DNA from: Coniferiporia sulphurascens
Lineage: Eukaryota; Basidiomycota; Agaricomycetes; Hymenochaetales; Hymenochaetaceae
Direction: 5' to 3'
DNA: 64,000 nucleotides
Assembly (NCBI GenBank): GCA_002794785.1
Contig: NBBA01000014.1
Location: forward strand, 1 to 64,000
Each line of letters starts with the position of its first letter. Position 1 is the stretch's first letter. The notes beneath the pieces are model-generated. The model searched no databases, was not told the origin of the DNA, and worked only from the letters and a program-made list of their open reading frames with translations. Positions 2,519 through 47,600 of the stretch are shown here, one piece after another. The translations under genes and the position numbers were made by a program.

Positions 2519-5500
2519 ATGATAGAGACAATCTCTGTCATGCAGTGGAATGCTGCCCACTCCTTAGCGGCGATACACTCCCTAATCTCTGTCCTTACAA
2601 CTGACCCCTCCCCTCCACACCTAATTCTTATCCAGGAACCACCTTGGTACCAAATAGGCCTGCAGCCATCACTCACTGACCCAACCGGCACCCTGGTCTT
2701 CAACATACCCACAATCCCGGGCTACATACCCGTACTACTGCCAGAGACCCGCCCTCGAGTAGTCACATATGTATCCAGAACCCTCCCCCCCACCTCCTGG
2801 TCAATCCTCGAGCCGCATCCTATGGCACCGACGTACTGACAGTAGAGGTACAATCCCAACTCACCCTCCAGGTGTGCAACTATTACGGCATGCACCCCCC
2901 GGACCGAGAGAATGCCCTCCCACAGTACCCAGGTGAGTCCTTTTTAATCTCACTCCCCTCGGCACTAGCCAGCACGCTACTCGTGGCAGGCGACTTCAAC
3001 CATCGCCACCACATGTGGTCCGACTTCGCTGTCCCATGATGGGATGACTTGGGGGCGCAACCCCTTGACAACTTTTTTTGTGGGCATGGCCTAGCGCCTG
3101 CCCACCTTCCTGACTCTGACTCATGGCCCAATGGCAAGCGTCGCCGGTGCCCCATTGACATGATCTGGGCCCCACCCTTGGTCAACCCTGACTCTATATT
3201 AGATTCGGCCACATCCGACCCCTCACCTCTGTCCGACCACGCCATCTTATGTTGGTCAGTGCCATCTCGGCCCCCCCCTCCTGTCCTAAAGACACACCGG
3301 CTACTCCCAGCCAACAAGGAGGAATGGACCAACATCGCCTTCCCTCTCCTCAAAATAGCCTTCAGTCTTCTGGGGCATGACACCCATATGCTGGACATCA
3401 AAGCCAAGGCAGTTATCAACTCTATGGTCGCTGCCCTTCAGCCATTCACCCACCTCTCAAAGCCATCGAAAACGGAAGTCCCATGGTGGTCACCCCACTG
3501 CAAGACATTACTATCCGCCATTACAATGGCCACCACCCCCCTCCAGTGTGCAACAGCAAGAAGAGCCTTCAAAAGGGGCATACGGACGGCCAAACGGCAG
3601 TTCTATGCGGACCAGGCATCAGAAGCGGACGCCTCCAACATCTGGAGCTGGGCCAAACGCGGCCTCGGCAACCGACCTACCCCCATCCCATCGCTGAAAC
3701 GGCGAGATGGAACCTTCACCCAAACGGACGACGAGAAAGGTGAGCTCTTTTGCGAAACCTTCTTCATGCCCCCACCACCCCAGACAGCGGCCAACACCCT
3801 GCTGCCACCACCTCAACCAGCTGCCCCACCCATACTCCTTACAGAGCTCACAGGGGCACTGTCCAATACGTCAAACTTGTCGGCTCTGGGTCTCTCAGGA
3901 ATAGGTTACCACCCCCTGAAATGGGTGGTGGATGCCTACCCTGATGAGATTCTTACACTTTTCAACAACTGTCTATGCTTGGGGCACCACCCTGAGTGCT
4001 GGCGGGTGGCAAAGGTGGTGATGCTCCGGAAGCCAAACAAGAAAGACCCATTTTCGCCATGCTCATACCGGCCCATCACCCTTGAGGAGACCCTAGGGAA
4101 ACTCCTCAAAAAGATAATAGCTAACTGGCTACAGTACCTCGCGAACATGAGGAACTGGCTGCCACCTAACCAATATGGGGGGCGACAGGGTCATTCGGTC
4201 TATGACGCTGCCCAACACCTCTTACAGATAGCGGAACGCGCCCACTCAGAGGGCCTTGTGTGCTCGGTCCTCGCAGTCGACATCCAGGGTTTTTTCGACT
4301 CGGTGCACCCACACCTCCTCCACCGACAACTGTTGGACCTCAGTTGCGCGCCAGACATGGCCAACTGGTGTCTGTCCTTCATGACGGATAGGCAGGTCAC
4401 AGTCGCATTCGATGGCACCACCCTCCCAACCGCCCCTAAACCCGACTATGGCACCCCCCAGGGCTCACCAGTCTCCCCCATCCTGTCAACAATATTCGCA
4501 GGTGTGGTACTCTGGTGCTTTCACCAAGCCGGCACCATGGCCCTGGCTTATGTTGATGACCACTTACTTATATGCGTAGGACCCTCAGTAGCATCCAACT
4601 GCCACGAGCTTGCCAAAGCATACCAACAACTCGACACCCTCTTCGGCACCATCGGTCTCAACATCAAAGCAGCCAAGATGGAATGTCTCCACTTCCGCCC
4701 CCCCTGGTGATGAACCGGCTATAATGGCTGGGACACAGCCGGCGTACAGGTCGACCCCAACACCCTAATCTGCCCCTCAATCCCACTCCAGTGGTTGGGG
4801 ATATGGTGGGATCCAGGCCTCTCCTTCAAGCCCCACATTGAGCAGATGCGCTCCAAGGGGCTCTCCACCCTCGCCACACTCCGCATCCTGGGCAACACCC
4901 AACGCGGCATATCGGCCCTCCTCCTCCGCCGCCTGTATACCTCCTGTGTCTGCTCCATCCTGTCATGGGGAGTGCTGGTGTGGTACCACAGCCGCCGCAA
5001 AAAAACTCTGGTAAACCACCTACAGGCTGTGCAAAACACGGCCTGCTGCTGGATCCTGGGCATCTTCAAAGGTGCCTCCCCACATTCCACTAATTTTCTT
5101 TGCTCCGTTCCCCCTCTCTCTTTCTATTTCGAATATATAAAGACTACCCATTCCCTCCACCTCTGGCGAACCCCACACTCTGTTGGATGAAAAATTTATA
5201 AAAATGTAACTAATGGACCTTTCTCCCTTTCTATGCAGGTCCAAGCCCCCCGGGTTCAACAGGTCCCAGCATACACACATCCCCCATGGACGGACCCACT
5301 GGCATTTGCAAAAGGCCGGATCCGCTTTACCACCCCTACCACACCGGTTAGCGCTGACACCCGAAAATCCTTCGTGGCAGCCATGTGCCAACTAGGCTCC
5401 ACCCCCCATGTCCAGGTATTTACCGACAGCTCTCGCATTGACAATAAGTTGGGCTCGGCCATCTGCGCAATGCTGGGCCACACCAGACTCCAGTCACGAC

Positions 5501-6516
5501 GACTGGAATCCCCCACCTGTGCCACAGCCACGGACACCGAGGAGTTCTCCCTCGCAACGGCCTCCGGCTGGGTGGCACACCGCCTCCCAGCTCAACTGCG
5601 TGTCACATCAGACATCTTCTTCCTGTCCGATTCACTGACTGCTATACACCTTTTCCGTACCTGTGCTGCCACCCCCGGCGCCCACCTCCTGCACATCTGG
5701 AAAGCAGGTGTGGATACTCTTCTGGACTCGTACCCCCAGCTCATGATTCATTTCGTATGGTGCCCTGGTCACTCGGACATCCCTGGGAATGAATGGGCTG
5801 ACACAGAGGCGAAGCTAGCCACGGAGCTCCCCCCATCCGACCTTAAACCCTCCATCTCCACGCTAAAAGAGGTTGCCGTCCGCACCCTCATGGAGCGATG
5901 GACACTCTCACTAGCCCACCCCCTGGCCTCAACTGCCAATAAGTACCTTGCAGTTCATGGCCTCCCTTCATGACAACCAAGAAAGCTGCTCATGCACTTG
6001 GTCGACCACCCACGAAGCGAGCTTTCTGCAGTTGCGCAGGTCCTCTGCTGCACCGGTCCCTACGGGGGATACTGGCTGAGTTTTGACTCAGCCTACCATC
6101 GTAGGCATGGCCTGATTTCGCATTGCAGGTGGCACAACCACCCCCCCTGGCCCGTGCAGTCGACTGCCCACATCCTAGGTGGCTGCAGCACTTTCCACCC
6201 ATGGATACAACGCATGTGGCCACCTTGAGACCCTCTCCCAACCCACCACTCAGAGTGGGCTGATGAAAACCGCCTCCCGGTTTTGTGCCAATGGCTTAAG
6301 CTGATGGGGCACCTAAACCGCCTTTCTGACTGTGCTGCAGGCGCCATACGGCTCTCCTTCGCCACAATGGACCTAGATGGACACCCAACTGACGAGGATA
6401 TGGACCTGGACCTCCTATGGGATTACATGCATTGTATGCTCGGACCCCAAACCCAGGACTCGGACCCAGCCCTTTTAGAGCTCTCAGGTACACTCCCCCC
6501 CTTTCCGCTTGATTAG
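2519..6516 (+). pseudogene. LINE copy 1 ORF2 (APE endonuclease, RT, RNase H), decayed
   Basis: ORF2 protein would nick target DNA and reverse-transcribe LINE RNA. The N-terminus (2519-2839) has the APE-type QWNAA and IQEPPW motifs. A one-base deletion near 2815 shifts the frame, and GDFN (about 2991) and SDH (about 3235) follow. The RT lies in 3049-4710 with PQGSPVSP and YVDDH. A stop at 4708-4710 precedes the RT C-terminus (4795-5190). RNase H and its C-terminal region are in 5233-5973, with FTDSS, EEFSL, LSDSLTA and CPGHSDIPGNEWAD. The Cys/His C-terminus is split over 5992-6516 by more stops. It starts on the ATGA overlap with ORF1. Length matches the 49946-58810 copy. Confidence 0.9.
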
Positions 6517-6669
6517 GGCCTGCCTTTCGAGTTCCCTTGAATACATCTTGGCCAGCACTCTCGCCCCCCCTTTCCAATTCTAAGCTTCTTACTTTTACCT
6601 GCCCTTAACCACCCGGTTTGTTCATAGCGATATGTATTACTCCCTCTCCCCTTGCCTCCCTACTAAATA

Positions 6670-8371: not shown

Positions 8372-8834
8372 CAGACACCCCCCCAGTCGACTGGCAAATG
8401 CAGAGCCAACGTCCTATCCCCCAAGACCCCCTGCAACCGACTGGTCACCTCAGAGTTCGTAAGAGCACTGACAGACTTCGCACCAAACACAGAAAGGGCC
8501 CTTGACAACCTCAAAGCTGACATCGAAAAGGCTGCCAGCTCCACATTGGTCGTACAGGCGACAGCAGCATTCCTGGGGAAACTAACAGCCCTCAGCCATG
8601 AAGCGCTCTCGACAACATACCAGATGCAAGATCGGGATGACCCGGAACACATTGCCACTCATGCAGCGGAGCAGGAATATGCCCAAGCCACGATGGGCAC
8701 AAGAATCTCACTCAGTGCACCATTCTCCTCAGCCATGAGAGCCCTGTTCACCTTCAGCACGAGGACTAACCAGCAGGCTCAAGCCCAACCTACTCCCCCT
8801 GACTCACAGATATCAGTGTTAGTGTTAGTAAACT

Positions 8835-8853
8835 GATGAAAATCATTTTCATC
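8835..8853. repeat. Palindrome 12 bp inside unit A
   Basis: GATGAAAAT, one central base, then ATTTTCATC: a perfect 9-bp inverted repeat. Unit C has the same structure at the same offset, and unit B has a different palindrome close to the same offset. Confidence 0.8.
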
Positions 8854-8878
8854 GGATCAACGGATTATCAAGATTGAC

Positions 8879-9529
8879 ATGGCAAGACCTGTAACTCTAA
8901 TCAATACCAGGAATCTATGCCAACGCTGTAAAGATGCAGATCAAGTAGCATGGAAAGCGTTTAACATTGCATGTGCAACAGTAGGACAGAATGCAGGATA
9001 TGACAACTGTCAAACTACATTTGATCATACTACAAGGGAACAACAAGTGGCGGAAAGGCTAGAAGTAATAATTGAACATAGAGCGACTATGTTCTCATAC
9101 CAATTGAATAGATATGTAATCAGCGCTTACACAAGAACCAAGATTTATAATCAGCCACATAATGAATTATGTTATCAAAGGGCAGTTATTACATCAACCG
9201 ATTATGCAGAAGTGGCACACCAAATAGTTCATACTATCAATAAACAATTATGAGAACAACTATTCACATACAAGGCCAACTTCATAGCCAAAGGACACAC
9301 AACAGTAGATCAAAAGGAACCAAATCTAAGACAGGAGTTAGTACCAATAGATAAAGAGATTATAATATGGTGGTTCAATGATGAACCGTCATATAGAGTT
9401 ACACCAGGGTATAGCAGGATAACAAATATAAACGCTATAGGGCCTGAGGTGCTCTTTATGCCAATAGACAATAGGACACCAGAACAAACCCCTTTTAATG
9501 ATATTATGGAAGGAATGACTCAATCTTAG
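8879..9529 (+). CDS. Unrecognised Cys-containing protein encoded in the U3 of unit A (in-frame TGA)
   Basis: I do not recognise this protein. The frame opens at ATG 8879, reads 124 codons to a TGA at 9251-9253, then stays open for 92 more codons to TAG 9527-9529. The N-terminal half has the pattern LC-x-RC, WKAFN, AGYDNCQ and DHT. The part after the TGA holds AKGHTT, PGYSRI and IDNRTP. Both halves align with unit B, whose DNA is otherwise very different, so the frame was selected as protein. Four cysteines suggest metal binding, which is speculative. The TGA may be a decayed CGA or a readthrough stop. There is no signal peptide or membrane segment. Confidence 0.65.
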
Positions 9530-9833
9530 TCTACGGTAATAAGCCACAACAAGATAAGATTAAGAAGGCTAGCATAATCGCTGAGCCACACAAGTATATC
9601 TAAGTGTTCAGCTAAGAACAGCTGATGGAAGCATGGCGATCAATTAGAAGACGCAATTGATGGGAGCCAAGTATAGCACATCGCACAGCAGAACCAATTA
9701 GGAAATAAGGAGAAGCATCATAGGTATAGTAGTATCCGAGAATGGTTAACTTAGGTATTATACTGTATGACTCAATGGAAACTCAGGGAAGGTTCTGGCA
9801 TAAGATAAAGATAGCACGGTAGGCTGTAGAATG

Positions 9834-9956
9834 TACCGGAATATGTAACTGACTCATAAGAAGCTAAGAATAGTAAAAAGCATGTACAGGATGGTACTGG
9901 AACATTCTTATGACTTATAAAGTGAGAGTAGTATGTTGTAGTATCTACTGGAACAT
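9834..9956 (+). promoter_or_regulatory. Three TACYGGAAYAT repeats in U3 of unit A
   Basis: TACCGGAATAT at 9834-9844 and TACTGGAACAT at 9895-9905 and 9946-9956. They lie 26-148 bp upstream of the TATA box, as expected for activator sites in U3. Function is inferred from position only. Confidence 0.45.
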
Positions 9957-9981
9957 GGTAAATAGACTACAACATGTAGGG

Positions 9982-9988
9982 TATAAAA
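9982..9988 (+). promoter_or_regulatory. TATA box of unit A
   Basis: TATAAAA, 184 bp before the 3' end. Units B and C have TATA boxes at about 180 and 185 bp from their 3' ends. Confidence 0.65.
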
Positions 9989-11449
9989 GCCCAACATAAA
10001 ATTGCAGTAAAAAGCAGTTTAATTCATCTCTTGTCTCTTACCACCATCATCAGCTCTAACACTCTAGTGAGTAGAGGGTAACAAGCCTACCCTAAACTAA
10101 CTAGCATTATTGTGTGAATCTGTTATTACTTGCTTCAATCCCTTAATCAAGGAGCGAATCTAACAGTTAGCAGACGTAGTGAAGCAGCTCTCAGTCGATG
10201 TGGGGAACCTCACCTGCCAGGTCTCCTCCCTGGCTTCACACCCTGCCCTGTGGCCTCAGCAGGCCCCACAGCAGACTCCCACCAACGTGGGAGGAACCAC
10301 CCCCGCCCCCACCACCATGGCAATGGTTGCCACAACCATCACTCCGGCACAGCTTGAGGCCGCAGCAAAAGTCGTGCCGGCTGGAGCCCCAATGACGTAC
10401 GCTCAGTTAGCGGCGATAGCAGCTAACCTCCCCCAGCCCCCCGCAGCCCAGACAGCCCCAGCAAAGAAGGTGAAGAAAGTCCGGCAACCACCACCCCCCC
10501 CCAAAATGTACACCAAGGAACCTACCTTGGTACTAACACTGCGGGACCTAGTCGCCCCTGCAGCTATGCATAAGTCAGGCACACCTCTCATGGAAATGGC
10601 CTGGGGTTTCTTCTGGGCCCTACCTACTGCTGACGTGGTCATCGTGCTGTCCTCCAAGTTCAACGTGAAGGGCAACCTGGTGACCACCTTTGCAGAAAGA
10701 CCCACCTCCTCCACTCCCACCACATCAGTGATCATTGACCGCCATGCGGATGCATTCACAAAGTACATGCGTGATTGCTGCCTAGCCCTCCCAGCGGACC
10801 AGCCCATTTCGGACCGATTCCAACTAACCCCCTCCAGAGTTCGCCCTAGATCGACATTACGCATCTCTATGGTGCCCTGCAGGGATGTCTTCTTTGGGCA
10901 AAACCCCCACCCCATCACCGAGGCGGCACTCCTCGCAGAAGTCCACCAAAACCCCTCCCTCAAGCACCTCGATTTCATGGTGCCACCCCACTATGCGACG
11001 GTTCTGGAAAAGCTTCCCGTCTTGGCGGCATGCCTGGTATCCTTCACCTTCGTTGACCCAGACAGGCAAACCCGAGCACACCTCCTCAAGAGAAACAGGG
11101 TTTACCTATTCGGATCCTCCCTCCGCCTTTCGGTCCCACCGGTCCAGCCCGGCCTCACCCAGTGTGAGCACTGCCAAGGACTCGGCCACAGAAAGAAGGG
11201 CTGCCAAGCCCAGGCTCGTTGCGCCAAATGTGCTGGACAGCACTTGACAGCCAACCATCATAAGTTGTGCACATACTGTGCAAATGATGCAGTCGAAGGA
11301 GACGCCTGCCCCCACCCCTGCCACTGTGCTAACTGCCAGAGTGACCACCCTGCCACCCTTCCCACCTGCCCGAAGAAGAAGCGCTTCTGCGTCATCGACT
11401 CCGCCCTCCAGGTTGAAGAGGACACTGATGCCTTCATGGAAGAGGACCA

Positions 11450-17143: not shown

Positions 17144-18455
17144 CTAGTTAGACTGGTCATCATTGTTAGACCCCATATCAACATCGTCGAGGTTGATGCC
17201 GGCGGCGATGTCGTCCATGTATGACTGGAGAAGAACACGAGCCCCTAGGTCAGAGAGGCGTACCAAGCGTCTTCTGTTTGTTGTTGACGGGGGTCGATTC
17301 TCGTCTGGAGTAGATGCCGGTGCACTGGGGTTTGTCGGGGTTGCCTCCCATCCATGTTGTGGGCATTCGCTGGGGGGGTGGTGTGGCGCGTTCTTCTTGC
17401 ACCATGGGCACATATACTGTATGCAGTATGTTGTGAGGTGTGTGGGTGATAGACACACGGAGCAGTGTGTGCGCAAGGATGACGAGGACGATGACTGAGA
17501 CTGAGTTGGGGCTTCGACCGGAAGTGGCTCCGTTTGTGTTGCGGAGTTGCGACGAGTGGTTGTGGGCAAGGATGGGACCGTTGGGACGAGTGGTGGATCC
17601 GGTGTGGGGCGGTAGAGATGCACCTGAGGATGAAGAGGGATGAGTACTCGATGGATCCCTTCTTCTTCGAGTGCCTCATAGTCCGTGTTACGTAGTAGGC
17701 AGAGATCGTCGACCAGATTACTTATCCTCGAGTCCAGCATTTCCGTGATTTCCTGGGCCTGCCACACTAGACGTTGCATATCCTCCAGCGTCCGTAGGCA
17801 TTGTCACATCCTGTTGACTTGGTGGGCTCGTGGGTGGGATGCTAGTAGTCTGTTGATGTCCATATCCAGGTCTGGGGCTGCGAGTACGTGCTGGAGGATG
17901 GTACACGGGAGGAGGGGTGTGGTTGGCCGGTTCAGATCTGGGACCGGGTATCTGCGTCGGGTTGCCAGATGGTGATGGCGGCGGTATTCCACACTGGTCC
18001 CGCTGTTCCTGGGCTGCGAGTGCGAGTTCATGGAATAGAGTCGCTTGGTTGTGTAAATTGGCGAGGTGAAGGAGTAGGTCGATGGAGGGTGGGTCTGTGC
18101 GACTTAACTGATTTTCTAGGCCTTCTATCTCAAACTCAATTTCAGTGAGATCCGATGGTTGGATGAAATCCTCTGGGAAGGTGCGTCTTAGTTGTTCAAT
18201 GACGTCCTGGTGGGTAGGGGCAGTCCTGCATGGTTGATACTCCTGGTGGTGGATTTCGACTGGTGGGTTTTGAATAGGGAGAGTTGGAGAGAGTGGTCAG
18301 CGATTTGCGACAGTGGGGTAGCGTATGTGTGGGGTGCGATGAGTGTGGGTGCGGATGGTGGTGGTAAGTGCGCAAACGAAGACAAATAAACCGGTGGGTA
18401 TGGCGATGGCGAGATACCAGAGGTGATTGTCGGTGGTGATGTATGTGGTGGGCAT
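17144..18455 (-). pseudogene. Element 1 envelope-position ORFs (TM protein and Cys/His protein), broken
   Basis: Downstream of pol, ATG 18455 opens a frame with one hydrophobic helix (LWYLAIAIPTGLFVFV) followed by basic residues. A TGA about 52 codons in breaks it. The overlapping second frame (from 18031) continues through HHHLATRR and HVLAAPDLDMDINRLLASHPRA, stops at a TGA that is Arg in element 3, then reads 17144-17779. That part has a helical region (EMLDSRISNLVDDL) and the Cys/His cluster CSVC...YMCPWCKKNAPHH...ECPQH. I know no homologue. Position resembles env, but nothing shows an envelope function. Confidence 0.65.
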
Positions 18456-23861: not shown

Positions 23862-24474
23862 TCAGTTGACGTCTGTATCCAGGTCTGGGGCTGCAAGAAC
23901 GTGTTGGAGGATGGTATGCGGGAGGAGGGGTGCGGTTTGCCAGTTCAGGTCATGGACTGGGTACCAGCGTCGTGTTGCCAGGTGGTGGTGGCGACGGTAT
24001 TCTGCACTGGTTCCGCTGTTCCTGGAAGTGGGCTGCGAGTGCAAGCTCATGGTGGATGATGGCCTGGTTGTGTAGATTGGCGAGGTGAAGGAGTAGGTCT
24101 ACAGAAGGTGGGTCTGTGCGACTTAGCTGGTTCTCGAGTCCTTCGATCTCGAACTCGATTTCAGTGAGGTCCGAGGGTTGGATGAAATCTTCTGGGAAGG
24201 TGCGTCGGAGTTGTTCGATGACGTCCTGGCGGGTGGGAGCGGATCTGCGGGGTTGGTATTCTTGGTGGCGGATTTTGACTGGGGGGTTTTGGATCGGAAG
24301 GGTTGGAGAGAGGGGTCGGTGGGTGGCGACGGTGGGGTACCGTATGTGTGGGGTGCGGTGGGTGCGGTGCCGGATGGTGGTGGTGATGGCGCAGATGAAG
24401 ATGAAGAGTCCACTGGGTATGGCGATGGCTAGGTACCAGAGGTGTTCATTGTTGGTGATGTAGGCAGTGGGCAT
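23862..24474 (-). pseudogene. Element 2 envelope-position ORF, 3'-truncated
   Basis: ATG 24474 opens 174 codons to a TGA at 23950-23952. Residues 12-34 (LWYLAIAIPSGLFIFI...) form one transmembrane helix followed by basic residues, which predicts a cytosolic C-terminus. A helical region rich in Glu and Leu follows (FEIEGLENQL, LLLHLANLHNQA). The overlapping frame from ATG 24050 begins MSLHSQPTSRNSG and carries the conserved YRRHHHLATRRW until the deletion near 23862. This is the best-preserved first half of the extra ORF. Confidence 0.7.
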
Positions 24475-34740: not shown

Positions 34741-35570
34741 GGCCTCTTTTTTTTATTTTTATTTTCATTTTTTTAAAATTATTCCTGCAGTATTACATAA
34801 TTACAAGCTGCCCCCCCAAAGGGGGGGCCCTAACTACATAACAACAGAGGCACCTGTCATTGTGCATCGCACAAAACTGGGTGGGGGCTCTGCTCCTGGA
34901 GGGGTGCCGAAGTGTGAAGAGCCCCTATTTAGTAGGAGGGACACAAGAGGGAGGGATACATATCACTACAAACAAACCATGTGGTTAAGGGCAGGTTAAA
35001 GTAAGAAGCTTAGAAAAGGAAAGGGAGGGCAAGAGCGCCAGCCGAGATGTATCTTGTAGGAATCTGAAAGGCAGGCTTTACTCAGGTGGGAAGGGAGGGA
35101 GTGTACCTGATAGCTCCAAAAGGGCTTGGTCCGAGTCCCGAGTTCAAGGTCCAAGCATATGGCGCATGTAATCCCTTAGGAGGTCCAGGTCCATATCTTC
35201 GTCAGTTGGGTGTCCGTCTAGGTCCATCGCAGTGAAAGATAGCCGGATGGCGCCCACGGCGTGGTCAGAAAGGTGGTTTAGGTGCCCCATCAGCTTTAAC
35301 CAATGGCACAGAACCAGGAGGCAGTTTTCATCAGCCCACTCTGAGTGGTGGACTAGGAGAGGGTCCTGAGGTGGCCACATGCACTGTATCCACAGGTGGA
35401 AGGTACTACAGCTGCCGAGGATGTGGGCGGTCAACTGCGTGGGCCATGGGGGGTGGTTGTGCCACCTGCAGTGTGAGATCAGGCCATGCCTGTGCCGGTA
35501 GGCTGAGTCGAAGCTCAGCCAGTAGCCCCCATAGGGACCGGCGTGGCAGAGAATGTTAGGAATTGATGAA

Positions 35571-35590
35571 TAAGCTTGCTTACAAGCTTA
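35571..35590. repeat. Palindrome 17 bp inside unit B
   Basis: TAAGCTTG, CTTA loop, CAAGCTTA. Its sequence differs from the palindrome of units A and C, but it lies at nearly the same place after the shared TGATGAA. Confidence 0.75.
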
Positions 35591-35658
35591 GACAACGATA
35601 CCAGTGACTACCAATACAGGAAGGGACTCCCACAGAGACTATCCAGCGATCATTCAAC

Positions 35659-36324
35659 ATGGGGATGGAACTAACTAGAAAACCAGGACTTCTTGGGAAC
35701 ATCAGGCCAATCATGATGCTCAAGCGACCGCTAAAGACTCTTGACCCGTCAAGACTCTGCCACCGATGCCGGACCGCATACAATCAATCATGGGAAGCAT
35801 TTAACATGGTAATAACCGAATGCTTTTACATGGCAGGGTACACGAACTGCCAGGTAACTACAGATCACACTGTAGACCCTATAGGCGATGGCACGGAGGT
35901 CAGGGTAATGCACATGATACAAATGTACATCTTCAATGTACAGGAGTTTTTGCACAACATCCATGTCCAGACGATAGTGAACCCGCACATACATGACAAG
36001 GAATGTGACCTACAAGTGGTCTCAGGATCCTTCCCATACAGGACATTGCAGGATAACACATTCCTAGCTAATGCTCACTGATTACGTGCAAAGGTAATCA
36101 CCCTCTTCGAGAATCTATCAGCAAAGGGATCGACGACCGCCAATCAACAGATCGGCAATGTTAATCTTTACGTGATAACACTATGGTTATCAAATGGATC
36201 ACCCCCAGCACCACCTCCAGGATACACGTGACATATCGCTAGGATAAACCACATTAACAAACCGCCAGACAATGTGATCGATGACAGGACACCAACCGAA
36301 AGGTACCCGCCTATGGACCTTTAG
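35659..36324 (+). pseudogene. Unit B homologue of the U3-encoded protein (two TGA)
   Basis: From ATG 35659, 140 codons to TGA 36079-36081, then open to a second TGA at 36229-36231 and to TAG 36322-36324. It shares the spacing of LC-x-RC, W-x-AFN, AGY-x-NCQ and DHT with unit A, and after the first TGA keeps AKGSTT, PGY, RIN and RTP. The first TGA aligns within a few codons of the TGA in units A and C. The second, next to a CpG-like context, looks like decay. The N-terminus is about 18 residues longer than in unit A. Function unknown. Confidence 0.6.
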
Positions 36325-36616
36325 CCGATATCGCATTACACGATTAAGCCACACTCGGCAGGAACCGAAGCGCTTACGGAAGCCAGCCACAAACTCTAAA
36401 TGGCGAAGTGTCCAATATGACAAGACAACATGGAGGAACCAGTACAGGAGGCCAACAAGACAAGTTAACGACTTACCAATCATCAAGCTGTTAGGCAGCA
36501 TCTTAACAAGAAGCCACTGGCACATAAGACTACAGGGTAGCATGCAGAACAGTGGGGCGACACACACAGCCTAAGCGTCATGGTGAAGTCATTATGATAC
36601 CATATGACGTCCCTAT

Positions 36617-36840
36617 GAGCTCAGTGGAGCCTAGTGGAGCATAGTGGAGCACATGACATGCAGTGGAGCTCAGTGGAGCACCAATGGCCAATCATAGATA
36701 GTTATTTCTCATATGATCCTCTAATGAGGTCATTTGCACTGGTATGCAGCTCCAAGTCAGTGGAGCTTATGACAACACTGTGAGGCATCATAGCTCCAAC
36801 TGCAGAGCCTTGTGGAGCGTCCACTTTCAAGCGGAGCTTC
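36617..36840 (+). promoter_or_regulatory. AGTGGAGC repeats in U3 of unit B
   Basis: AGTGGAGC occurs about six times between 36617 and 36680, again near 36760, with looser copies to 36840, just upstream of TATATAAG at 36850. Position suggests activator binding sites; spread by slippage is also possible. Confidence 0.45.
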
Positions 36841-36849
36841 TTCTTCATG

Positions 36850-36857
36850 TATATAAG
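36850..36857 (+). promoter_or_regulatory. TATA box of unit B
   Basis: TATATAAG, about 180 bp from the end of the unit after removing element 3. This matches units A and C. Confidence 0.65.
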
Positions 36858-37019
36858 GAGGGCCTAGACCAGCCTAGACCCCCAGTTTAATTCACCTTCT
36901 CAATTCTCTCAGACTTCTCCTGAGCGAAGTACCAACATCTACCAACTTATTCTTGACTCAATCACATGCCTCAACTCTATCTCAACTACTTGTTCCATCG
37001 GCTAACCACGGTTACCCTT

Positions 37020-37579
37020 TGTTAAGCTCAACGGTTACGTGGTGATCGATGTTGGGGCTTCCTGATCGTCGAGGCTGATGGTTATGGCAATGGGGCTTCC
37101 TAGATGTCGTAAGTCAAAGGTGATCATCGGCGGGGCTTCCTGATCGACGATGTGGACACGAGGTGCTTCTTAGCGATGTCGGGTTACGACGAAGTGACTA
37201 ATGGCCGAGTGGCACACAGTAGACTGGTGGTAGCAGATAATGGGCTTGTATGAACAAAGAGCACAAGCTTAGGGCTTGTGCTACTGAAGTTACATGCTTA
37301 TATGCTACTCTATGTGTTTACTACCGTAGCGGCCTGTGTAAGGTAGTTTACCAGACTATGGAAGGTCATGGAAACCCAAGGAATGCCTTGGTAATACAAG
37401 TAGGGCTATCAGTAAGCAAAGCACATCATGATGGTGCAATAAGGTGTCATCATGGCGTCTTATGGCGCAAGGTGAATAATGATGAGTAAGGCAGAGAAAT
37501 GGGGGAGGTGCGCTGACTGATGATGATGAATAGGAAGTGAGTCAGCACAGTAAGGTGAAAGTAAAGGAAAATTGTAACA
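37020..37579 (-). repeat. 3' LTR of element 3
   Basis: 560 bp. CCCTT precedes it and a PPT (CTAAATGGGAGGCAA on the minus strand) follows. Confidence 0.95.
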
Positions 37580-38048
37580 TTGCCTCCCATTTAGGATCAA
37601 CAAGTCACCAAATTGTCAATAAAATATAAAACGAGTAAATGAAAGAAAAATAATAATCCAAGTGTATCAAAATGCCGGCCTAGCAGGTCTTTAAGTGTAG
37701 TGCTAGGTTCACCACAGAGTTTGTTACCGTGCTCTTTGGTACCTAATCCTGGTCTTTCACCAATATTAATGGTATGATGTCCTGAAGATGGTGAAAAAGC
37801 GGAAAATAGATGCAAGAAGAATCCCTAACCCGGATTGCGAGTCATATTAGCCTATAGGGCCAAGTGAAGGCCAATAAACGATAAGGAAAAGGCAAGCTGC
37901 CAACAAGGACGATAACAAGCAGGGAAATGGGCGTAAAAAATATAAAGTGAAAACGCACTAGTGGGCCTTTTAAGGTCATACCCAGGAGTAGTAGTTTAGG
38001 GTCGTTGTGGACACACATTAGTTTTCTGTCATTGCGGACTAGGAACGC

Positions 38049-39351
38049 CTAGTTAGACTGTTCGTCGTTGTTAGACCCCATATCGATGTCGTCGAGATTA
38101 ATCCCAGCAGCTATGTTGTCCATGTACGACTGAAGGAGGACACGGGCCCCTAGATCGGAGAGGCGTACTGTGCGTCTTCTGTTTGATGTGTTTGGTGGAG
38201 ACAGTGGTCTGTTCTCGTCAGTGGCGAGTTCTTCTCCTTGTCCGTGTTGTGGGCATTCCCCCGGAGGATGGTGGGGAGCGGCCCTCTTGCACCATGGACA
38301 AGTGTACTGGACACAGTACGTGGTGAGATGAGCAGGTGACAGACACACAGAGCAGTGTGTGCGCAAGGATGACGGGGACGATTCCTGAGATGGGGGTGGA
38401 GCTTGGACCGGGAGTGGTTCGGTTTGGGTTGCCGAGTTGCGACAAGTGACCACAGGTGACGAGGGGACAGTTGGAACGATCGGAGGAGCAGGTGTCGGGC
38501 GGTAAAGATGCGCTTGAGGATGAAGAGGAATGAGTACTTGGTGAATACCTTCTTCCTCTAGTGCCTCGTAATCCGTGTTCCGTAGCAGGCGGAGATCGTC
38601 AACCAGATTACTTAACCGTGAGTCAAGCATCTCCGTGATCTCCTGAGCATGCCATGCCAGGTGTTGCATGTCCTCCAGGGTCTGTAGGCGTTGCCGCATC
38701 CTGTTGACCTGGCGAGCTCGTGGGTGAGATGCTAGAAGTCGGTTGACGTCTGCGTCCAGGTCGGGGGCTGCGAGTACATGTTGGAGGATGGTACGCGGGA
38801 GGAGGGGTGCGGTTTGCCGGTTCAGGTCGTGGACCGGGTATCAGCGACGGGTTGCCAGGTGGTGACGGCAACGGTATTCTGTGCTAGTTCCGCTGCTCCT
38901 GGAGTTGTGCTGCGAGTGCGAGCTCATGGTAGATGACGGCCTGGTCGTGTAGATTGGCGAGGTGAAGGAGTAGGTCAACCGAGGGTGGATCAGATTGACT
39001 TAGCTGGTTTTCGAGTCCTTCGATCTCAAATTCGATTTCAGTGAGGTCCGAGGGCTGGATGAAGTCTTCAGGAAAGGTGCGTCTGAGTTGCTCGATGACA
39101 TCCTGGCGGGTAGGAGCGGATCTGCGAGGTTGGTATTCCCGGTGGCGAATCTCGACCGGGGGGTTCTGGATAGGGAGAGTTGGAGAGAGAGGTTGGCGGT
39201 TGGCGACTGTGGGGTAGCGGATGTGTGGAGTGCGGTGGGTGTGGTGACAGATGGTGGAGGTGATGGCACAGACGAAGACGAAGAGGCCGCTGGGTATGGC
39301 GATCGCTAGATACCAAAGGTGGTTGTTGTTGGTGATGTAGGCGGTGGGCAT
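38049..39351 (-). pseudogene. Element 3 envelope-position ORFs (TM protein overlapping Cys/His protein)
   Basis: ATG 39351 lies 30 nt after the pol stop. The first frame (155 codons to a TAG at 38884) has a transmembrane helix at residues 12-34, then basic residues and an acidic helical region; the TAG is CAG in element 2. The second frame overlaps it in +1, is open from before 38820 apart from one TGA, and continues as 38049-38699 (216 codons). That contains RLQTLEDMQHLAWHAQEI, CSVCLSPAHLTTYCVQYTC, CPWCKRAAPHHPPGECPQHG and an acidic C-terminus. The product could be two proteins or one joined by frameshifting. Family unknown to me. Confidence 0.65.
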
Positions 39352-39381
39352 AGAAGACGATGTGGGTTGGATGAGGGATCT

Positions 39382-42300
39382 TTATGTGATGTTTTTGAGG
39401 GTTTTATACGTTTCTAGGATATCGGAAGCATGTGAAAGGTCTTTCTCGGCGAGCCATTGATTTTCGGAGGACGGGTATCCATTCCACTTTACGAGGAAAC
39501 ACTGTCTGTTCCCGGCGCCCTTGTGTGAGAGAATTGCCTCGATTTCGTATTCCTGCTGATCTTCTATCAGGTCAGGTGGTGGTTGACTGAATGGAGGTCT
39601 GTGTGCGTCGGTCTCCGAGTATGCCGAAAGAAGTGAGGCGTGGAAAACAGGGTGAATGCGCCATGCATTGGGTAATTTGAGGTGATAATTCAGGGGTGAT
39701 AGTACCTGAACTATGGGAAATGGTCCCTCCCGTTTAGGTGATAATTTGTGGGAGCGGTTGGGGAAATGCAAATTAGTGGCTTCTAACCAAACTTTGTCAC
39801 CAAGTTTGAATGGTTTGAAGCCTCATGCACTGAATCATGCCATATGAGCTCGGGTGAGGTCATGGGTGGTGAGCGCTTCTTTTCTGATTGATGAAAGAAG
39901 ACATAGGCGTTGTGAGAGGGACGGAAGATTGGTATCTTCTATTACCGTGGGGATGGGTATAGGGTTATACCCTAGCATGACAGTGAACGGCGAAGTCTTG
40001 GTGACTGAATGGGTCTGGATATTGTGTGAGAATTCCAGATCCGTGAGTGAGTCAGCCCAGGAATGAGGTGATGTGCCACAATAAATGCGCAGATAAGCTT
40101 CGACCTCCTGATTGGCGCATTCAGTTTGTCCATCTGTTTGAGGATGATACGCCATTGACAGTTTAGACTTAATTCTGAGGCGTTTGCACAGTGTCTGGAA
40201 AACCTGTGATGCGAATTGGGGTCCTCTATCCGATATGATGCGTTTGGGAAGTCCGAACCGCCGATAAACATTATTGTGGTAGCATTTCGCCGTTCCGAGT
40301 GCGTCAATGGTCTTGTGGCAAGGAATAAGAACGATCCCTTTAGAAGAGTCATGATCCACGACTACCATAATGGAGTCGTATCCGTTTGATACGGGTAGGT
40401 CCGTGATAAAATCCATGGACACCGATTGAAATGGTAGCATGGATGCGTCCACAGGTATCAGGAGCATGGGCGGTTTGGTCGGGTGTGTGTTGATTTTCAT
40501 CTGTTGACACGCCGCACATCCTTTGACGTAATTCCCTATGAAGACCGTTAATCCGGGCCACCAATAGTGTTGTCGCACTAATTGGGAAGTTTTGAATACT
40601 CCTGGATGGCCGAACGATGGGAGATCATGAAACATTTGTAGGATTTCCCATTTGATTTCCGCATTGTCTGGTATATAAACCCATTTCTGGTATCGGAGAA
40701 GGCCGGAGTCAATAGTCCAGTCATCCAGCGAGAATCTGAATGGTGATGGAATTTTTAACACTCGTGCATCCTGGATGGTTCTTGCAAACGAATCCCCTTC
40801 TTGGGCATCTCGGATGCGGTTCTGGAGATCCATATTGATGGTTCTGATAAACAGTGTTTCTGGTAACATGATACATTCTTCTAGTGGTTCCTCGCTGTGG
40901 TCAGGGCGTCTGGATAGTGCATCCGCACCAGGAATAGACTTTCCCGGGCAGTGTGAGATTACACAATTGAATTGGGATAAGAATAGGTTCCATTGTGATT
41001 GTCTCGGGGTTAGACGATGTTCGGATCTAAAGTACGATAGGTTTTTGTGGTCACACCAAATTGTGGTTGTGTGCGGGTTGCCAAGGAGGTAGTGACGCCA
41101 TGCTTCGAGGCCACGTATTATCCCTAGAAGTTCTCTATCATAGACCTCGTAGCGTTGTTGAGCGGGTCTGAACGCTTCTGAAATATACCCGCAAGGCTGT
41201 AGATCGCCATTTGAGTTTGCCTGATAGAGTACCGCCCCCGAAGCCACTTTTGATGCATCTGTTTTGAGGATGAATGGCTTCGTGGGGTCAGGTACTAATA
41301 GAGCCGGTTTGTCTAAGAAGAGCATTTTGAGTTTTGTAAACGCTTGGTCTCTTTCAGGTGTCCATTTCCATTGTTCGTTTGTGCGAGTGAGTTCATTGAG
41401 AGGATACACAATGTCCGAAAAACTAGGGATGAAGCATCTGTAGTAATTGCAGAATCCCATAAAGCTTCGTAGCTGTTTGACGGTGTGGGGAGTAGGCCAA
41501 TTGGCAATTCCCGCAAGTTTGACAGGGTCCATGTGTATATTGTCCGGGGTGATGATCATGCCCAGAAATTCGATGTGTTGTACTCCAAATAAGCATTTCT
41601 CTGGTTTGCAATAGAGATCATTGGCTGCACATATATCCAGTACGCGACACGTGCATTGGTGAAGTTCTTCCATCAAGTTGGCAGGAATGAGTACGTCATC
41701 CATGTATATCAGGGTTCCATCTTCTAGAATTACGAAGCGGAATGTGTCATCCATGAAGGCTTGAAACATGGCTGGTGAATTGCACAGGCCAAAAAACATA
41801 ACCGTGGGCTCGAATAGTCCTCGAGGAGTTTTAAAAGCGGCTTTCCATTGATTGCCATCTTTTATTTGAATGTTGTTGTAACCTGAGCGAAGATCGAGTT
41901 TTGTGAAATATTTTGCTCCTTTGAGTTTGTCCATAAGGTCACTGATCAAGGGTAATGGGTACGCGTTTTTAATGGTTCCTTCATTAAGCGCACAATAATC
42001 CTGGCATCCACGAAGGCTAGTATCCTTCTTCCCGACAAAGAAGAAAGGAGATGCCATTGGTGATTTGGATGGGCGAATGTAGCCTTTGCACAGGTTTTTG
42101 TCTAGGAATTCGTTGAGTGCTGCCAGTTCTTTGGGTGCCAGTGGGTAGACTTTACAGTCATGTGGTATGAAATCAGGTTTGAGATCAATGGCGTGGTCAT
42201 ATGGTCTAGAGATCGGGAATCGTTCCGCCGATTTTTTGCGAAAAATATCGAGGTATCGATGGTATTCAGGGGGAATCATTTGTTCCACAGGTTTTGTTTC

Positions 42301-42729
42301 TTTAACCTGTTCCTGAGCGAGTGAGGTTGCGGTGGTGACCTTTGCGATAGCGAGAGTGCCTTTCTGCCAATTTATAACCGGGTTATGGTTTTTTAACCAT
42401 GGTAGGCCAAGGATAACGTCTTCCTTGCCTAGAGAAGTTACAAGTAACTTTAAAGGGAGCAATTTCCCTTCAATGCAAATTAGTCTCCAAACGTATTTGG
42501 TGATGGTTCCGTGTTCGTTGGTGGATCCGTCCGCATTAAGAACCATAATGGGGCGAGCCAATGTTCACGTGGGTATGCGATGCTTGATGACGAATTTGGC
42601 GTCAATAAACTGGCCTTCAGCGCCAGAGTCAATGAGTGCATTGGTAGGGACGGTTTTGTCATAGACAATCATAGAAATTGGGATCTTCATTGCAGGGAGT
42701 GAAGGATCGGAATTTACAATTGGAGACAT
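39382..42729 (-). pseudogene. pol: Element 3 Pol, with TGA stops
   Basis: It starts at ATG 42729, matching element 2, or continues by frameshift from the GGGTTTT at 42771-42777. A TGA replaces CGA in IPTRTLA before 42561. The next 908 codons (39835-42561) are open through PR end, RT (YMDD), RNase H and most of integrase. Two more TGA occur just after HMA (about 39820-39835), then the integrase end and chromodomain finish at 39382. All breaks I found are TGA. Confidence 0.85.
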
Positions 42730-42767
42730 GGTAACAGGAAGACTTAATGTCCATCTAAGCTTCCTCT

Positions 42768-44048
42768 TTAAAAACCCTGCTTGTCCAGGATGTCAAAGAT
42801 CTCATCCTTCTTTGTCTCGTCGAATTGGTTGAGCAGGTTACAGATGCTAGCCGCGATGTCCTCGGGAGCTTGGTTCTCTCCAGTGGGCTCTGGTGTCTCG
42901 ACAATTGGGAACGCATTATCAATGGTACGGACCGTACACTGTTGGCTGGGTCCTTGCTGGTACTTGGTACAGTCACGAGCATTGTGTCCCTTCTCTCTAC
43001 AGGCTAGACAGCGTCCTTCGCACATGCACCTGGCACATTCTTCCTCCGAAAGACGTGGAGGGCGACTGGAGTTTGTTCCTTGAGTAGCCCGTTGACTTGG
43101 CTGGTACGGCCGACATTGTTGGTTGTTTCCGAGGTTATGGAAACGGTTTTCTTGTTTAGTGGGGGTTTGCCCCGGGCCGCGGAGGGCCTTGAGTCGTTGG
43201 TAGATGGCATCCTGTTTGGAGGCCTCTCGGTACCATTCCTCAATGGTGGTAGGAGTCTTGGCACTTGCCAGAACGCATGCTAGAAGGCCATGCCTTAGTC
43301 CTTTCTCATAGATGGGGATGAGGTTGTTGTCCCCAGACATCCCTGCTCGTGTGACGAGGGATTGGAAGCGACTATTGTAGTCGTCTGCGGATCCCATTTG
43401 TTGGAGTGTCATAATCTCCTGAGATGCTTCGGCAACGTCATCCGTAGTGATGAACATGTTGCGGAAGTCGCACTTGAAGTCGCCCCATGTACTGTATCCG
43501 ACGATGGTAGTGAGGGTCTTGCTGTTGGCGTCCTTGGCAAAGGCTGATGCAAGCATTTCGCAGTTGATGGCCCAGTCTCCTGCAGTCCCTGTCTGCATAT
43601 AGGAGAGGACAAAGTTGACTTTCAACTCATTGGTGGTGTACACGTGGCGGTTAATGTGGAGGTACACCTTGCAGCTGGATAGGAAGCGACAGGCATACTT
43701 GCGGTCTCCATCAAAGGTGTTGGGCCGGGCAAGGTTGATCTCCTTGGGTGCCAGTGTTGACGACATTGGAGGTGGGGTCTGGGTCTTTGGGAAGATGGTT
43801 CGGTAGTTGGGTACGTTTTGTACGAATGTGCTGCTAGCGTCTTCAGCGTCATTGGCTTTGAACCACTGAAAATCTCCGTTTGTGTTTTCTAACCACAAGT
43901 AGTAGTTGAATTCGTTCGAGTTGGGTTGCTTTTTCTTAAAGCACTTGAGGTCGTGGTCCCAGGTTCCTCCGATGAGGGGGTAGATGGGCTGCGGGATGGC
44001 TAATTTCGACAGGTTGGGCAGAGGGTTGGTGCTTGGATGTTGGATACA
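42768..44048 (-). CDS. gag: Element 3 Gag with CCHC zinc knuckle
   Basis: 427 open codons, from just after a TGA at 44049-44051 to the TAA at 42768. The first in-frame ATG is 43766; the upstream part lacks ATG but keeps the conserved protein sequence seen in the other elements. The knuckle CLACREKGHNARDC is intact. It ends with CAG GGT TTT TAA. Confidence 0.83.
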   Translation of the reverse strand, partial: CIQHPSTNPLPNLSKLAIPQPIYPLIGGTWDHDLKCFKKKQPNSNEFNYYLWLENTNGDFQWFKANDAEDASSTFVQNVPNYRTIFPKTQTPPPMSSTLAPKEINLARPNTFDGDRKYACRFLSSCKVYLHINRHVYTTNELKVNFVLSYMQTGTAGDWAINCEMLASAFAKDANSKTLTTIVGYSTWGDFKCDFRNMFITTDDVAEASQEIMTLQQMGSADDYNSRFQSLVTRAGMSGDNNLIPIYEKGLRHGLLACVLASAKTPTTIEEWYREASKQDAIYQRLKALRGPGQTPTKQENRFHNLGNNQQCRPYQPSQRATQGTNSSRPPRLSEEECARCMCEGRCLACREKGHNARDCTKYQQGPSQQCTVRTIDNAFPIVETPEPTGENQAPEDIAASICNLLNQFDETKKDEIFDILDKQGF

Positions 44049-44081
44049 TCAGCAAAAAAAATTTGGGAAAGCTTGTGCTAG

Positions 44082-44641
44082 TGTTAAGCTCAACAGTTAT
44101 GCGGTGATCGACATCGGGGCTTCCTGATCGTCGAGGCTGATAGTTACAGCAACGGGGCTTCCTAGATGTCGTAAGTTGAAGGTGATCGTCGGCGGGGCTT
44201 CCTGATCAACGATGTGGACACGAGGTGCTTCTTAGCGATGTCGGGTTACAACGAAGCGACTAATGGCCGAGTGGCACACAGTAGACTGGTGGTAGCAGAT
44301 AATGGGCTTGTATGAACAAAGAGCACAAGCTTGGGGCTTGTGCTACTGAAGTTACATGCTTATATGCTACTCTATGTGTTTACTACTGTAGCAGCCTGTG
44401 TAGGGTAGTTTACCAGACTATGGAAGGTCATGGAAACCCAAGGAATGCCTTGGTAATACAAGTAGGGCTATCAGTAAGTAAAGCACGTCATGATGGTGCA
44501 ATAAGGCATCATCATGGCGTCTTATGGCACAAGGCGAATAATGATGAGTAAGGCAGAGAAATGGGGGAGGTGTGCTGACTGATGATGATGAATAGGAAGT
44601 GAGTCAGTGCAGTAGGGTGAAAGTAAAGGAAAATTGTAACA
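44082..44641 (-). repeat. 5' LTR of element 3
   Basis: 560 bp. TATA box at about 44359-44365 and the PBS-complementary sequence at 44322-44332, on the minus strand. CCCTT follows. Confidence 0.95.
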
Positions 44642-44656
44642 CCCTTGGTCCTAACA

Positions 44657-47600
44657 GAGAACCTGCGCAACTGCCGCTAGCTCATTGCGTGAGTGGTCAA
44701 CCAATTGCATAAGCAGCTTTCATGGTTGGAGTGAAGGGAGGCCATGAACTGCCAAGTACTTGTCAGCGGTTGAGGCGAGGGGGTGGGCTAGCGAGAACGT
44801 CCATTGCTCCATGAGGGTGCGAATGGCGACCTCTTTTAGTGCGGAGGTGGAAGGTTTAAGGTCAGATGGGGGGAGCTCCATCGCCAGCTTCGCTTCTGTG
44901 TCAGCCCATTCATTGCTGGGGATGTCTGAGTGACCTGGACACCATACAAAATGAATGGTGAGCTGGGGGTACGAGTCCAGGAGAGTCTCCACACCCACTT
45001 TCCAGATGTGGAGGAGGTGGGCGCCAGGGGTGGCGGCCCAAGTGTGGAAAAGGTGGAGGGCGGTCAGTGAATCAAACAAAAAGAAGATGTCCAATGCAAC
45101 ATGCAGTTGTGCCAGGAGGCGGCATGCTACCCAGCCCAGGGCTGTGGTGAGGGAGAATTCCTCGGCGTCCGTGGCTGTGGCACAGGTGGGGGACTCCAGT
45201 CGGCAGGACCGGAGTCGGGTGTAGCCGAGCATTGCGCAGATGGCTGAGCCCGACTTATTGTCTATGTGGGAGCCATCTGTGAATACCTGGATGTGGGGGG
45301 TGAGGCCTAGTTGGCGTGTGGCTGTTATGAATGATTTTCAGGTGTCGGCGCTAACTAGTGTGGTGGGTGTGGTGAAGCGGACTCGGCCTTTTGTGAAGGC
45401 TAGGGGATCCGTCCATGGGGGATGTGTGTATGCAGGGACTTGTTGAACCCGGGGGGCTCGGACCTGCAAAGAAAGGGAGAAGGGTCTATTAGCTACGTTT
45501 TTAAAAAGTTTCCGACCAATAGAGTGCAGGGTGCACCAGAGGCACAGGGAATGGGTTGTCTTTATATATTCAAAGTAGAAAGAGAGAGGGGGAACAGAGC
45601 AGAGGAAATTAGTGGAATGGGGGGAGGCACCTTTAAAGATGCCCAGAATCCATTGGCAGGCCGTGTTTTGCACAGCCTGCAGGCAGGTTACCAAAGTTTT
45701 TTGGCGGCAGCCATGGTACCAGACTGGTGCCCCCCAAGAAAGGACCGAGTGGATGCAGGAGGTGTATAGGCAGCGGAGGAGGAGGGCTGAGATACCATGT
45801 TGTGTGTTGCCTAAAATGCAGAGAGTGATGAGGGTGGAGAGCCCTTTAGAGCGCATGCACTCAACATGGGGCTTGAAAGAGAGACCTGGGTCCCACCATA
45901 TCCCTAGCCACCAGAGGGGGATTGAGGGGCAGATCAGGGTGTTGGGGTCAACCTGGATGCTGGCGGTGTCCCAGCTGTCATAGCCGGTGTGTCGCCATGG
46001 GGGGTGAAAGTGGAGGCATTCCATTTTGGCAGCTTCAATGTTGAGACCGATGGTGCCGAAGAGGGTGTTGAGTTGCTGGTATGCACAGGCTAGAGCGCGG
46101 CAGTTGGATGCCACTGAGGGGCCTACACAAATTAGTAAGTGGTTGTCAACATATGCCAAAGCAGTGGTTCCAGCTTGGTGAAAGTGCCAGAGGACCACCC
46201 CTGCGAATATAGTTGACAGGATGGGGGAGACCGGCGATCCCTGTGGGGTGCCGAAATCGGGTTTGGGGGCGGTGGGGAAGGTGGTGCCATCGAAAGCGAT
46301 GGCGACCTGCCGATCCATCATGAAGGATAAGCACCAGTTGGCCACATCTGGGGTGCAACCGAGATCCAACAGTTGTTGGTGGAGGAGTCTAGGGTGCACT
46401 GAGTCGAAGAAGCCTTGGATGTCGACCGCTAGGACCGAACAGACAAGGCCCTCTGAGTGGGCATGCTCCGCAATCTGTAGAAGGTGTTGGGGGGCATCGT
46501 AGACCGAATGGCCTTGGCGCCCCCCATACTGGTTAGGTGGCAACCAGCCCCATGAGTTGGCGAGGTACTGGAGCCAGTTAGCTATAATCTTTTCAAGGAG
46601 TTTCCCTAGGGTCTCCTTGAGGGTGATGGGCCAGTATGAACGCAGTGAGAATGGGTCCTTCTTGTTCAGCTTCTGGAGCATTATGACTTTTGCTGTCCGC
46701 CAGCACTCAGGGTGGTGCCCCAGGTGCAGACAGTCGTTGAAAAGTGTAAGTATCTCATCGGGGTAGGTGTTAAGCTCAACGGTTACGCGGTGATCGATGT
46801 CGGGGCTTCCTGATTGTCGGGACTGATGGTTATGGCAACGGGGCTTCCTAGATGTCGTAAGTCGAAGGTGATCGTCGATGGGGCTTCCTGATCGACGATG
46901 TGGACGTGAGGTGCTTCTTAGCGGAGTCAGGTTACGACAAAGCAACTAATGGCCAAGTGGCACACAGTAGACTGGTGGTAGCAGATAATGGGCTTGTATG
47001 AACAAAGAGCACAAGCTTAGGGCTTGTGCTACTGAAGTTACATGCTTATATGCTATTCTATGTGTTTGCTACTGTAGCGACTTGGTTAGGTATGTTTGCC
47101 AGATGAAGGAAGGTCATGGAAACTCAAGGAAGGCCTTGGTAATACAAGTAGGGCTATCAGTAAGCAAAGCACATCATGATGGTGCAATAAGGCGTCATCA
47201 TGGCATCTTATGGTGCAAGGCGAATAAGGATGAGTAAGGTAGAGGAATGGGGGAGTTGTGCTGACTGATGATGACGAAGAGGAAGTGAGTCAGCGCAAAT
47301 AAAAGGAAAGTAAAGGAAAATTGTAACAGTAGGCATCCACCACCCATTTCAGGGGGCGGTAGCCTATTCCCGAGAGGCCCGGGGCCGACAGGTTGGATGT
47401 GTCGGTCAGTGCCCCCATAAGCTCTGCATGGAGGATGGGCAGGGCAGCTGGTTGTGTAGGTGGCAGTGGGGGGTCGGCTGTTTCCTGTGGTGGGGGGGAC
47501 ATGAAGAAGGTTTCTCTGAAGAGCTCACCTTTCTCATCATCCGTCTGGGTGAAGGAGCCATCTTGCCGTTTGAGCGAGGGGATGGGGGTAGGTCGGTTGC

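Follow-up and report, generated by a model that had tools for sequence, protein, structure and literature searches.

The sag open reading frame (ORF) of mouse mammary tumour virus (MMTV) lies inside U3 of the long terminal repeat (LTR). To our knowledge, a selected protein gene inside U3 is known only from a few vertebrate retroviruses, and no account of a protein ORF in the U3 of fungal LTRs was found in the open-access literature searched. TRIM and Cassandra-type elements possess two LTRs. The available portions of the reports on them describe non-autonomous LTR elements without gag-pol and, for Cassandra, an LTR that carries sequence of foreign origin (PMC3532108, PMC10886601). For crapaud of Podospora, the accessible text gives 150 full copies in seven genomes, with most terminal-repeat copies being solo or fragments; full copies are absent from some bursts, which contain just solo and fragment copies, and from some of the smaller subfamilies. 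U3 upstream of the TATA box diverges between crapaud subfamilies, and the rest of the LTR is conserved (PMC10787394, in the part available). LTR retrotransposons of bdelloid rotifers carry additional ORFs, according to the available section of that report (PMC5408684).

We analyzed the first 64,000 nucleotides of contig C14 in the genome of Coniferiporia sulphurascens (39.3 Mb, 31 contigs); this whole stretch is referred to as the window. Three units in the window, A, B, and C, each start with TGTTAG and end with CTAACA. Unit A is LTR-like (8823-10165, + strand) and is flanked by the target duplication GTTAG at 8818-8822 and 10166-10170. Unit C (54104-55447, - strand) belongs to the A family, is 97% identical to unit A, and has the duplication GATCC (GGATC on its own strand) at 54099-54103 and 55448-55452. 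The main part of unit B (35554-37019, + strand) starts with TGTTAGGA, and its last 10 bp, GGTCCTAACA, lie at 44647-44656 (+ strand) beyond a nested Ty3 element; its duplication GAGAA is at 35549-35553 and 44657-44661. The nested element (37020-44641, - strand) is not part of the unit, has LTRs that are 94.6% identical, and carries its own target duplication, CCCTT. Units of the A and B types measure 1.35-1.48 kb. Their terminal inverted repeats are 6-8 bp; within A and B of the window, the ends carry no long repeats in either direct or inverted orientation.

A TATA box lies near the 3' end of each unit: at 9982-9988 in A (+ strand; start 183 bp from the 3' end), at 54282-54288 in C (- strand; 184 bp), and at 36850-36857 in B (TATATAAG, + strand; 179 bp). 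The 11-base motif AGTTTAATTCA, the presumed start of R, begins 34 bp past the TATA start in all 3 units (10016-10026 in A and 36884-36894 in B, both + strand; 54244-54254 in C, - strand). These are its 3 matches in the window, compared to 0.56 expected, and 3 of 100 shuffles reached that number; none occurred outside the units in the window, even when one mismatch was allowed. The TATA position and the shared motif together place a putative promoter in the 3' part of all 3 units, in the order U3-R-U5.

Upstream of the TATA box, each unit has an ORF: 8879-9529 in A (+ strand; 216 codons plus stop), 54741-55391 in C (- strand; 216 codons), and 35659-36324 in B (+ strand; 221 codons plus stop). 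The ORF starts 56 bp from the 5' end of unit A and 105 bp from that of unit B, and inspection by eye revealed no promoter ahead of it. All 3 frames are interrupted by TGA, once each in A and C and twice in B. A-type and B-type DNA have only short similar stretches in common (the best is 23 bp long, E = 0.008), whereas the encoded proteins are 31% identical. An earlier note on this DNA, made from the sequence alone, had described TG...CA ends with exact 5-bp duplications, a TATA box some 180 bp short of the 3' end, a frame of about 217 codons upstream of it, and near-identity of A and C alongside a B that is very different in DNA yet related in protein. The duplications GTTAG, GAGAA, and GATCC, the TATA distances of 179-184 bp, the 216 and 221 codons, and the DNA and protein identities of 97% and about 31% bear this description out; the TGA interruptions are an addition to it.

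Several other features of the window were recorded. Direct repeats of a CAGTGGAGC-type unit at 36601-36820, upstream of the unit B TATA box, are possible regulatory repeats. An inverted repeat able to form a hairpin lies just inside the 5' end of unit A (8835-8853, 9-bp arms by eye) and of unit B (35559-35602), and the two hairpin sequences differ from each other. In-frame stops in Copia reverse transcriptase (RT) and in the unit ORFs are nearly all TGA, the kind of stop that CpG decay would give. Elements in the window include a Ty3 gag-pol with a chromodomain and a LINE-like reverse transcriptase. Ty3 elements have extra ORFs downstream of pol at 17144-17779 and 23950-24474 (- strand), and at 38049-38699 and 38884-39351; the products are 211 and 216 amino acids with Cys-rich motifs, and 174 and 155 amino acids with what by eye is a hydrophobic start. 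The two extra ORFs that were scanned had no Pfam match at E <= 0.01.

Copies of the two unit types, fragments included, are scattered through the genome and number well over 200. The A-type 5' end occurred 202 times at up to 2 mismatches, and the reversed control 0 times. A search with the A protein, in which 150 of 323 candidates were scored, had 27 of the 150 A-type matches free of stops in the matched part by hand count. The corresponding search with the B protein (150 of 317 candidates scored) returned about 80 B-like matches above 240 bits, some of them fragments; the matches listed below these were smaller fragments, followed by A-like sequences at 26-31% identity. Two features of a solo LTR, TG...CA ends and a target duplication of 4-6 bp, were found. 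The ends were present in all 21 A-type rows read with their flanks (20 A copies and one 79%-identical relative), in 12 B copies, and in unit C. An exact 5-bp duplication was seen in 13 of the 21 A-type copies, for a chance expectation of 21/1024, or about 0.02. In B, the script detected exact duplications in 8 of 12 copies, or 9 of 12 when unit B of the window was added by eye, since the nested Ty3 element splits that unit and hides it from the script. The misses at L013, L030, and L031 fit recombination, that at L011 was off by one base, and the others are unexplained. Divergence was 3.4% from the TATA box to the end compared to 6.8% in non-coding U3, both values being pooled over the A rows against one reference copy that is itself among the rows.

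A solo LTR is the best fit to the layout and behavior of these units. We consider it probable that they are solo LTRs of two old retrotransposon lineages with an accessory protein encoded in U3, and that the parents were lost by recombination between units. In a complete element, transcription would have started at the TATA box of the 5' unit, and the RNA would have passed through the inside of the element and terminated in the 3' unit. The U3 ORF would then be the 3'-most gene of the element RNA, like sag in MMTV, and we infer that its product would serve as an accessory protein that raised the element's own spread. Recombination between direct copies would have deleted the insides and left single units. 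A U3 that holds the 3'-most gene would account for the outward direction of the TATA box, the low variability downstream of it, the fact that no promoter is visible ahead of the ORF, and the selection on the ORF described below.

If elements bounded by the units survived, same-strand neighbors would be in excess. Within 15 kb, there were 17 same-strand pairs compared to 32 opposite-strand pairs for 169 A positions, and 2 compared to 7 for 80 B positions. Among the copies examined at these positions, no complete element with two units around gag-pol was found. Four of the 17 same-strand A pairs were read through and one more was read at its ends only; one of the 17 is probably a single unit counted twice. 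The L041 pair, in which LINE and Ty3 LTR sequence separates the two units and the outer flanks are mismatched, was rejected as an element. At L042 and L043, the units lie in nests together with Ty3 LTRs, further units, and further elements; in the L043 pair, unit two (L015) is flanked by a duplication of its own. Within the L042 sequence, positions 5062-6561 hold two long frames that resemble, by eye, a KDZ/Plavaka-type transposase.

Reverse transcriptase genes gave a similar picture. At least 150 Copia RT hits are present in the genome (150 of 191 candidates were scored), and, with 155 A and 80 B positions considered, 0 of 150 had same-strand units on both sides at a distance of up to 12 kb. 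For Ty3 RT, 85 of 87 hits were kept, the two weaker ones being dropped, and 1 of the 85 lay between same-strand A units. This candidate, C2:689610-702290, was rejected because no two of its flanks match (GAAAC at the 5' outer side, CTTAA, GGTGG, and CAGGC at the 3' outer side). No primer site was evident there, and another unit-like 3' end at C2:698815 suggests that the locus is a nest. The 5' flanks of 21 A copies fit a purine-run pattern at up to one mismatch, but no polypurine tract or other sequence is common to these flanks. A primer-site pattern search gave 18 matches, with sequence available for the earlier rows, and has little bearing on primer sites. Because a parent element was sought and none was found, the units are not placed in a named LTR family; in the other respects examined, they behave as solo LTRs do. 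The solo LTR of the earlier note therefore stands as to layout (ends, duplications, and TATA box), but its descent from a full element was not borne out: the two units around gag-pol that the note had proposed to look for did not turn up among the copies examined, whether in pairs, with Copia RT, or with Ty3 RT.

These results bear on a different reading, in which the unit is itself a mobile LTR-like element with its own selected gene, borrows the integrase of Ty3 or Copia, and never had an inside. The tests made, each covering part of the copies, revealed no complete element for the 202 A-type 5' ends or the roughly 80 matches of B type, and two families that are 31% alike both look single-unit. 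Selection also acted on the A ORF, something for which non-autonomous leftovers would have no need. The copies are also about as young as the surviving whole Ty3 elements: the median terminal branch was 0.034 in A (24 rows) and 0.024 in B (12 rows), and the half-LTR divergence of two Ty3 pairs in the window was 0.027 and 0.017, the second pair having no matching duplication shown. The A and B copies thus show no clear sign of being older than the Ty3 elements still present in full, which argues against easy loss of parents. However, the TATA box is directed outward through the 3' end, inspection by eye showed no promoter ahead of the ORF, the inverted ends are just 6-8 bp with no long terminal repeats inside A and B of the window, the ORF product has no Pfam domain, and a unit of this kind is not known to have any means of copying itself. 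We regard a unit that moves alone as unlikely.

The close pairs speak to another possibility, that the units are LTRs of TRIM-like miniature retrotransposons, in which two units around a very short non-coding inside were reduced to singles almost at once. Such an origin would account for the LTR layout as well as the absence of nearby gag-pol, and 4 same-strand A pairs do lie 1.5-1.9 kb apart. However, in L028, the one close pair examined (493 bp from unit to unit), each unit has a separate duplication, and identity to the reference copy is 79% for one unit and 93% for the other. The L028 units are separate insertions, and the pair was rejected as an element. An origin of this kind appears quite improbable.

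Loss of parents through recombination, as the solo LTR reading supposes, has a visible counterpart among the units. The 5' flank of unit L013 on C26 is that of C14:71332 (95.8% over 1,400 bp), and its 3' flank is that of unit C (96.5% over 518 bp). L013 bears two different duplication halves, GTTTC and GGATC, whereas both C14 units keep matched duplications. From these flanks, we read L013 as what remained when two direct copies, separated by 17 kb within a duplicated region, recombined and the DNA between them was deleted. In addition, two B units of opposite orientation on C14 (L030 and L031), 25 kb apart and 99.8% identical, have swapped duplications (GGGGG and TGATC), an arrangement that fits an inversion.

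Pairs of units with equal protein scores were counted over 150 A and 80 B positions, the score being a proxy, with DNA compared for L021/L022 and L030/L031. Of the 42 opposite-strand pairs lying no more than 30 kb apart, 11 had exactly equal scores (A 5/32, B 6/10), compared to 0 of 25 same-strand pairs (A 0/21, B 0/4) and 27 of 14,185 distant pairs (A 18/11,057, B 9/3,128); by this measure, neighbors in opposite orientation are often homogenized. The pairs were located on contigs C1, C2, C6, C7, C8, C14, C18, and C26. L021 and L022 were identical over 1,350 aligned positions, with zero branch length, and the duplication and flanks of each copy remain distinct. These patterns are most naturally explained by deletion in direct pairs and by conversion and inversion in inverted pairs. 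Deletion between direct pairs would provide a mechanism for the loss of whole elements. Parts of C14 and C26 are duplicates that are about 96% identical and have unit insertions in common, such as window positions 8700-10300 and C26:62481-66830 (L001/L003), and C14:54104, C14:71332, and C26:97507.

Selection on the ORF was assessed in 23 distinct A copies, after one identical duplicate was dropped and the 79% relative was kept apart. Sites touched by CpG in any copy were left out, and the neutral ratio of nonsynonymous to synonymous changes (N:S) was predicted from the observed mutation spectrum. Variants shared by at least 3 copies numbered 6 nonsynonymous and 28 synonymous, compared to a neutral ratio of 2.61:1 (p = 5e-11). 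Such variants did not necessarily arise independently of one another, and the counts leave aside those present in just two copies. By codon position, the shared variants numbered 5, 3, and 26 at positions 1, 2, and 3. Singletons comprised 35 nonsynonymous and 28 synonymous changes plus 4 stops, also below the neutral N:S (p = 0.005), and shared and singleton N:S differed (Fisher p = 0.0005). The singletons mostly reflect decay following insertion. The 79%-identical relative compared to the open A frame (201 codons) gave a dN/dS of 0.22. Taken together, the codon patterns indicate that purifying selection acted on the A ORF during the spread of the A family. The B ORF had 2 shared variants in 12 copies, both nonsynonymous and 0 synonymous, too few for power. 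Between the A family and the 79% relative, the proportion of synonymous differences (pS) was 0.50 compared to 0.16 in non-coding U3. At 4-fold sites the excess shrank (0.27 compared to 0.16), and a mosaic origin is not claimed.

Purifying selection on a conserved protein in family A argues that the ORF is not a chance capture, that is, a cellular or satellite gene that was caught in a defunct LTR family and does nothing for the element. All 3 window copies are interrupted and the product has no known domain, as such a capture would have it, but the A ORF was selected during spread, a homologous ORF sits in the same place in two families of different DNA, and relatives exist on two other public contigs; we consider a capture very improbable. 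The further claim that the gene serves the element is favored, for A, by selection during spread; a role in RNA packaging or in escape from silencing is speculation.

The relationship between the A and B proteins was evaluated with one A and one B copy from the genome outside the window, which gave a Smith-Waterman score of 202 compared to a maximum of 55 in 500 shuffles. Identity between one A and one B copy at codon positions 1, 2, and 3 was 0.46, 0.57, and 0.31 over 196 codons. Cys and His positions were invariant in 5 aligned rows, of which 3 were the window frames and one was a partial protein. Two public proteins (199 and 124 amino acids, 60% and 67% identical to A) sit on short contigs of 698 and 919 bp, and the family is therefore probably not limited to the C. 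sulphurascens genome. A profile search at E <= 1 added no homologue beyond these two, and no relative was present among 60 and 63 pattern matches in collections of viral and genome contigs. The ORF product had no Pfam match over the cut-off and no match in a sequence search of the PDB. Structure prediction, which had been suggested as a check, yielded low-confidence models with a helix, three to four strands, and a helix, and a fold comparison of these models gave no usable match. DNA transposons with terminal inverted repeats have a transposase or DDE integrase and repeats longer than about 10 bp, so that an element of this type (e.g., Ginger) was rejected for units with repeats of 6-8 bp, no long inverted arms, and no Pfam domain over the cut-off.

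LTRs are usually treated as regulatory ends. If the ORF is an accessory gene of fungal LTR elements, masking solo LTRs in annotation hides a gene family. Units that move on their own would instead call for a broader definition of what an LTR element is. The units also lend themselves to a natural assay of how repeats recombine in this genome, given how inverted neighbors differ from direct ones.

The unusual feature of the units is the gene in U3. Like MMTV sag, the A-family ORF is selected and, if the unit is an LTR, lies wholly in U3 upstream of the TATA box. Unlike sag, its product has no superantigen homology, as judged from the lack of a Pfam match over the cut-off and of a PDB sequence match; the host is a fungus, and no provirus was found here. 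Like TRIM and Cassandra elements as described in the available text, the units are of LTR type without gag-pol, and like Cassandra they carry cargo in the LTR, but the Cassandra cargo resembles 5S rRNA and is not a protein ORF (PMC3532108, PMC10886601). An extra ORF is shared with the bdelloid rotifer elements, in which no tie of the ORFs to the LTRs is seen in the available section (PMC5408684). With crapaud the units share a variable U3, a conserved part after the TATA box, and a predominance of solo copies, whereas the crapaud U3 is less than 200 bp, a U3 ORF goes unmentioned in the accessible part of that report, and full copies exist (PMC10787394). By analogy, crapaud would be a good fungal precedent for lineages reduced to solo LTRs.
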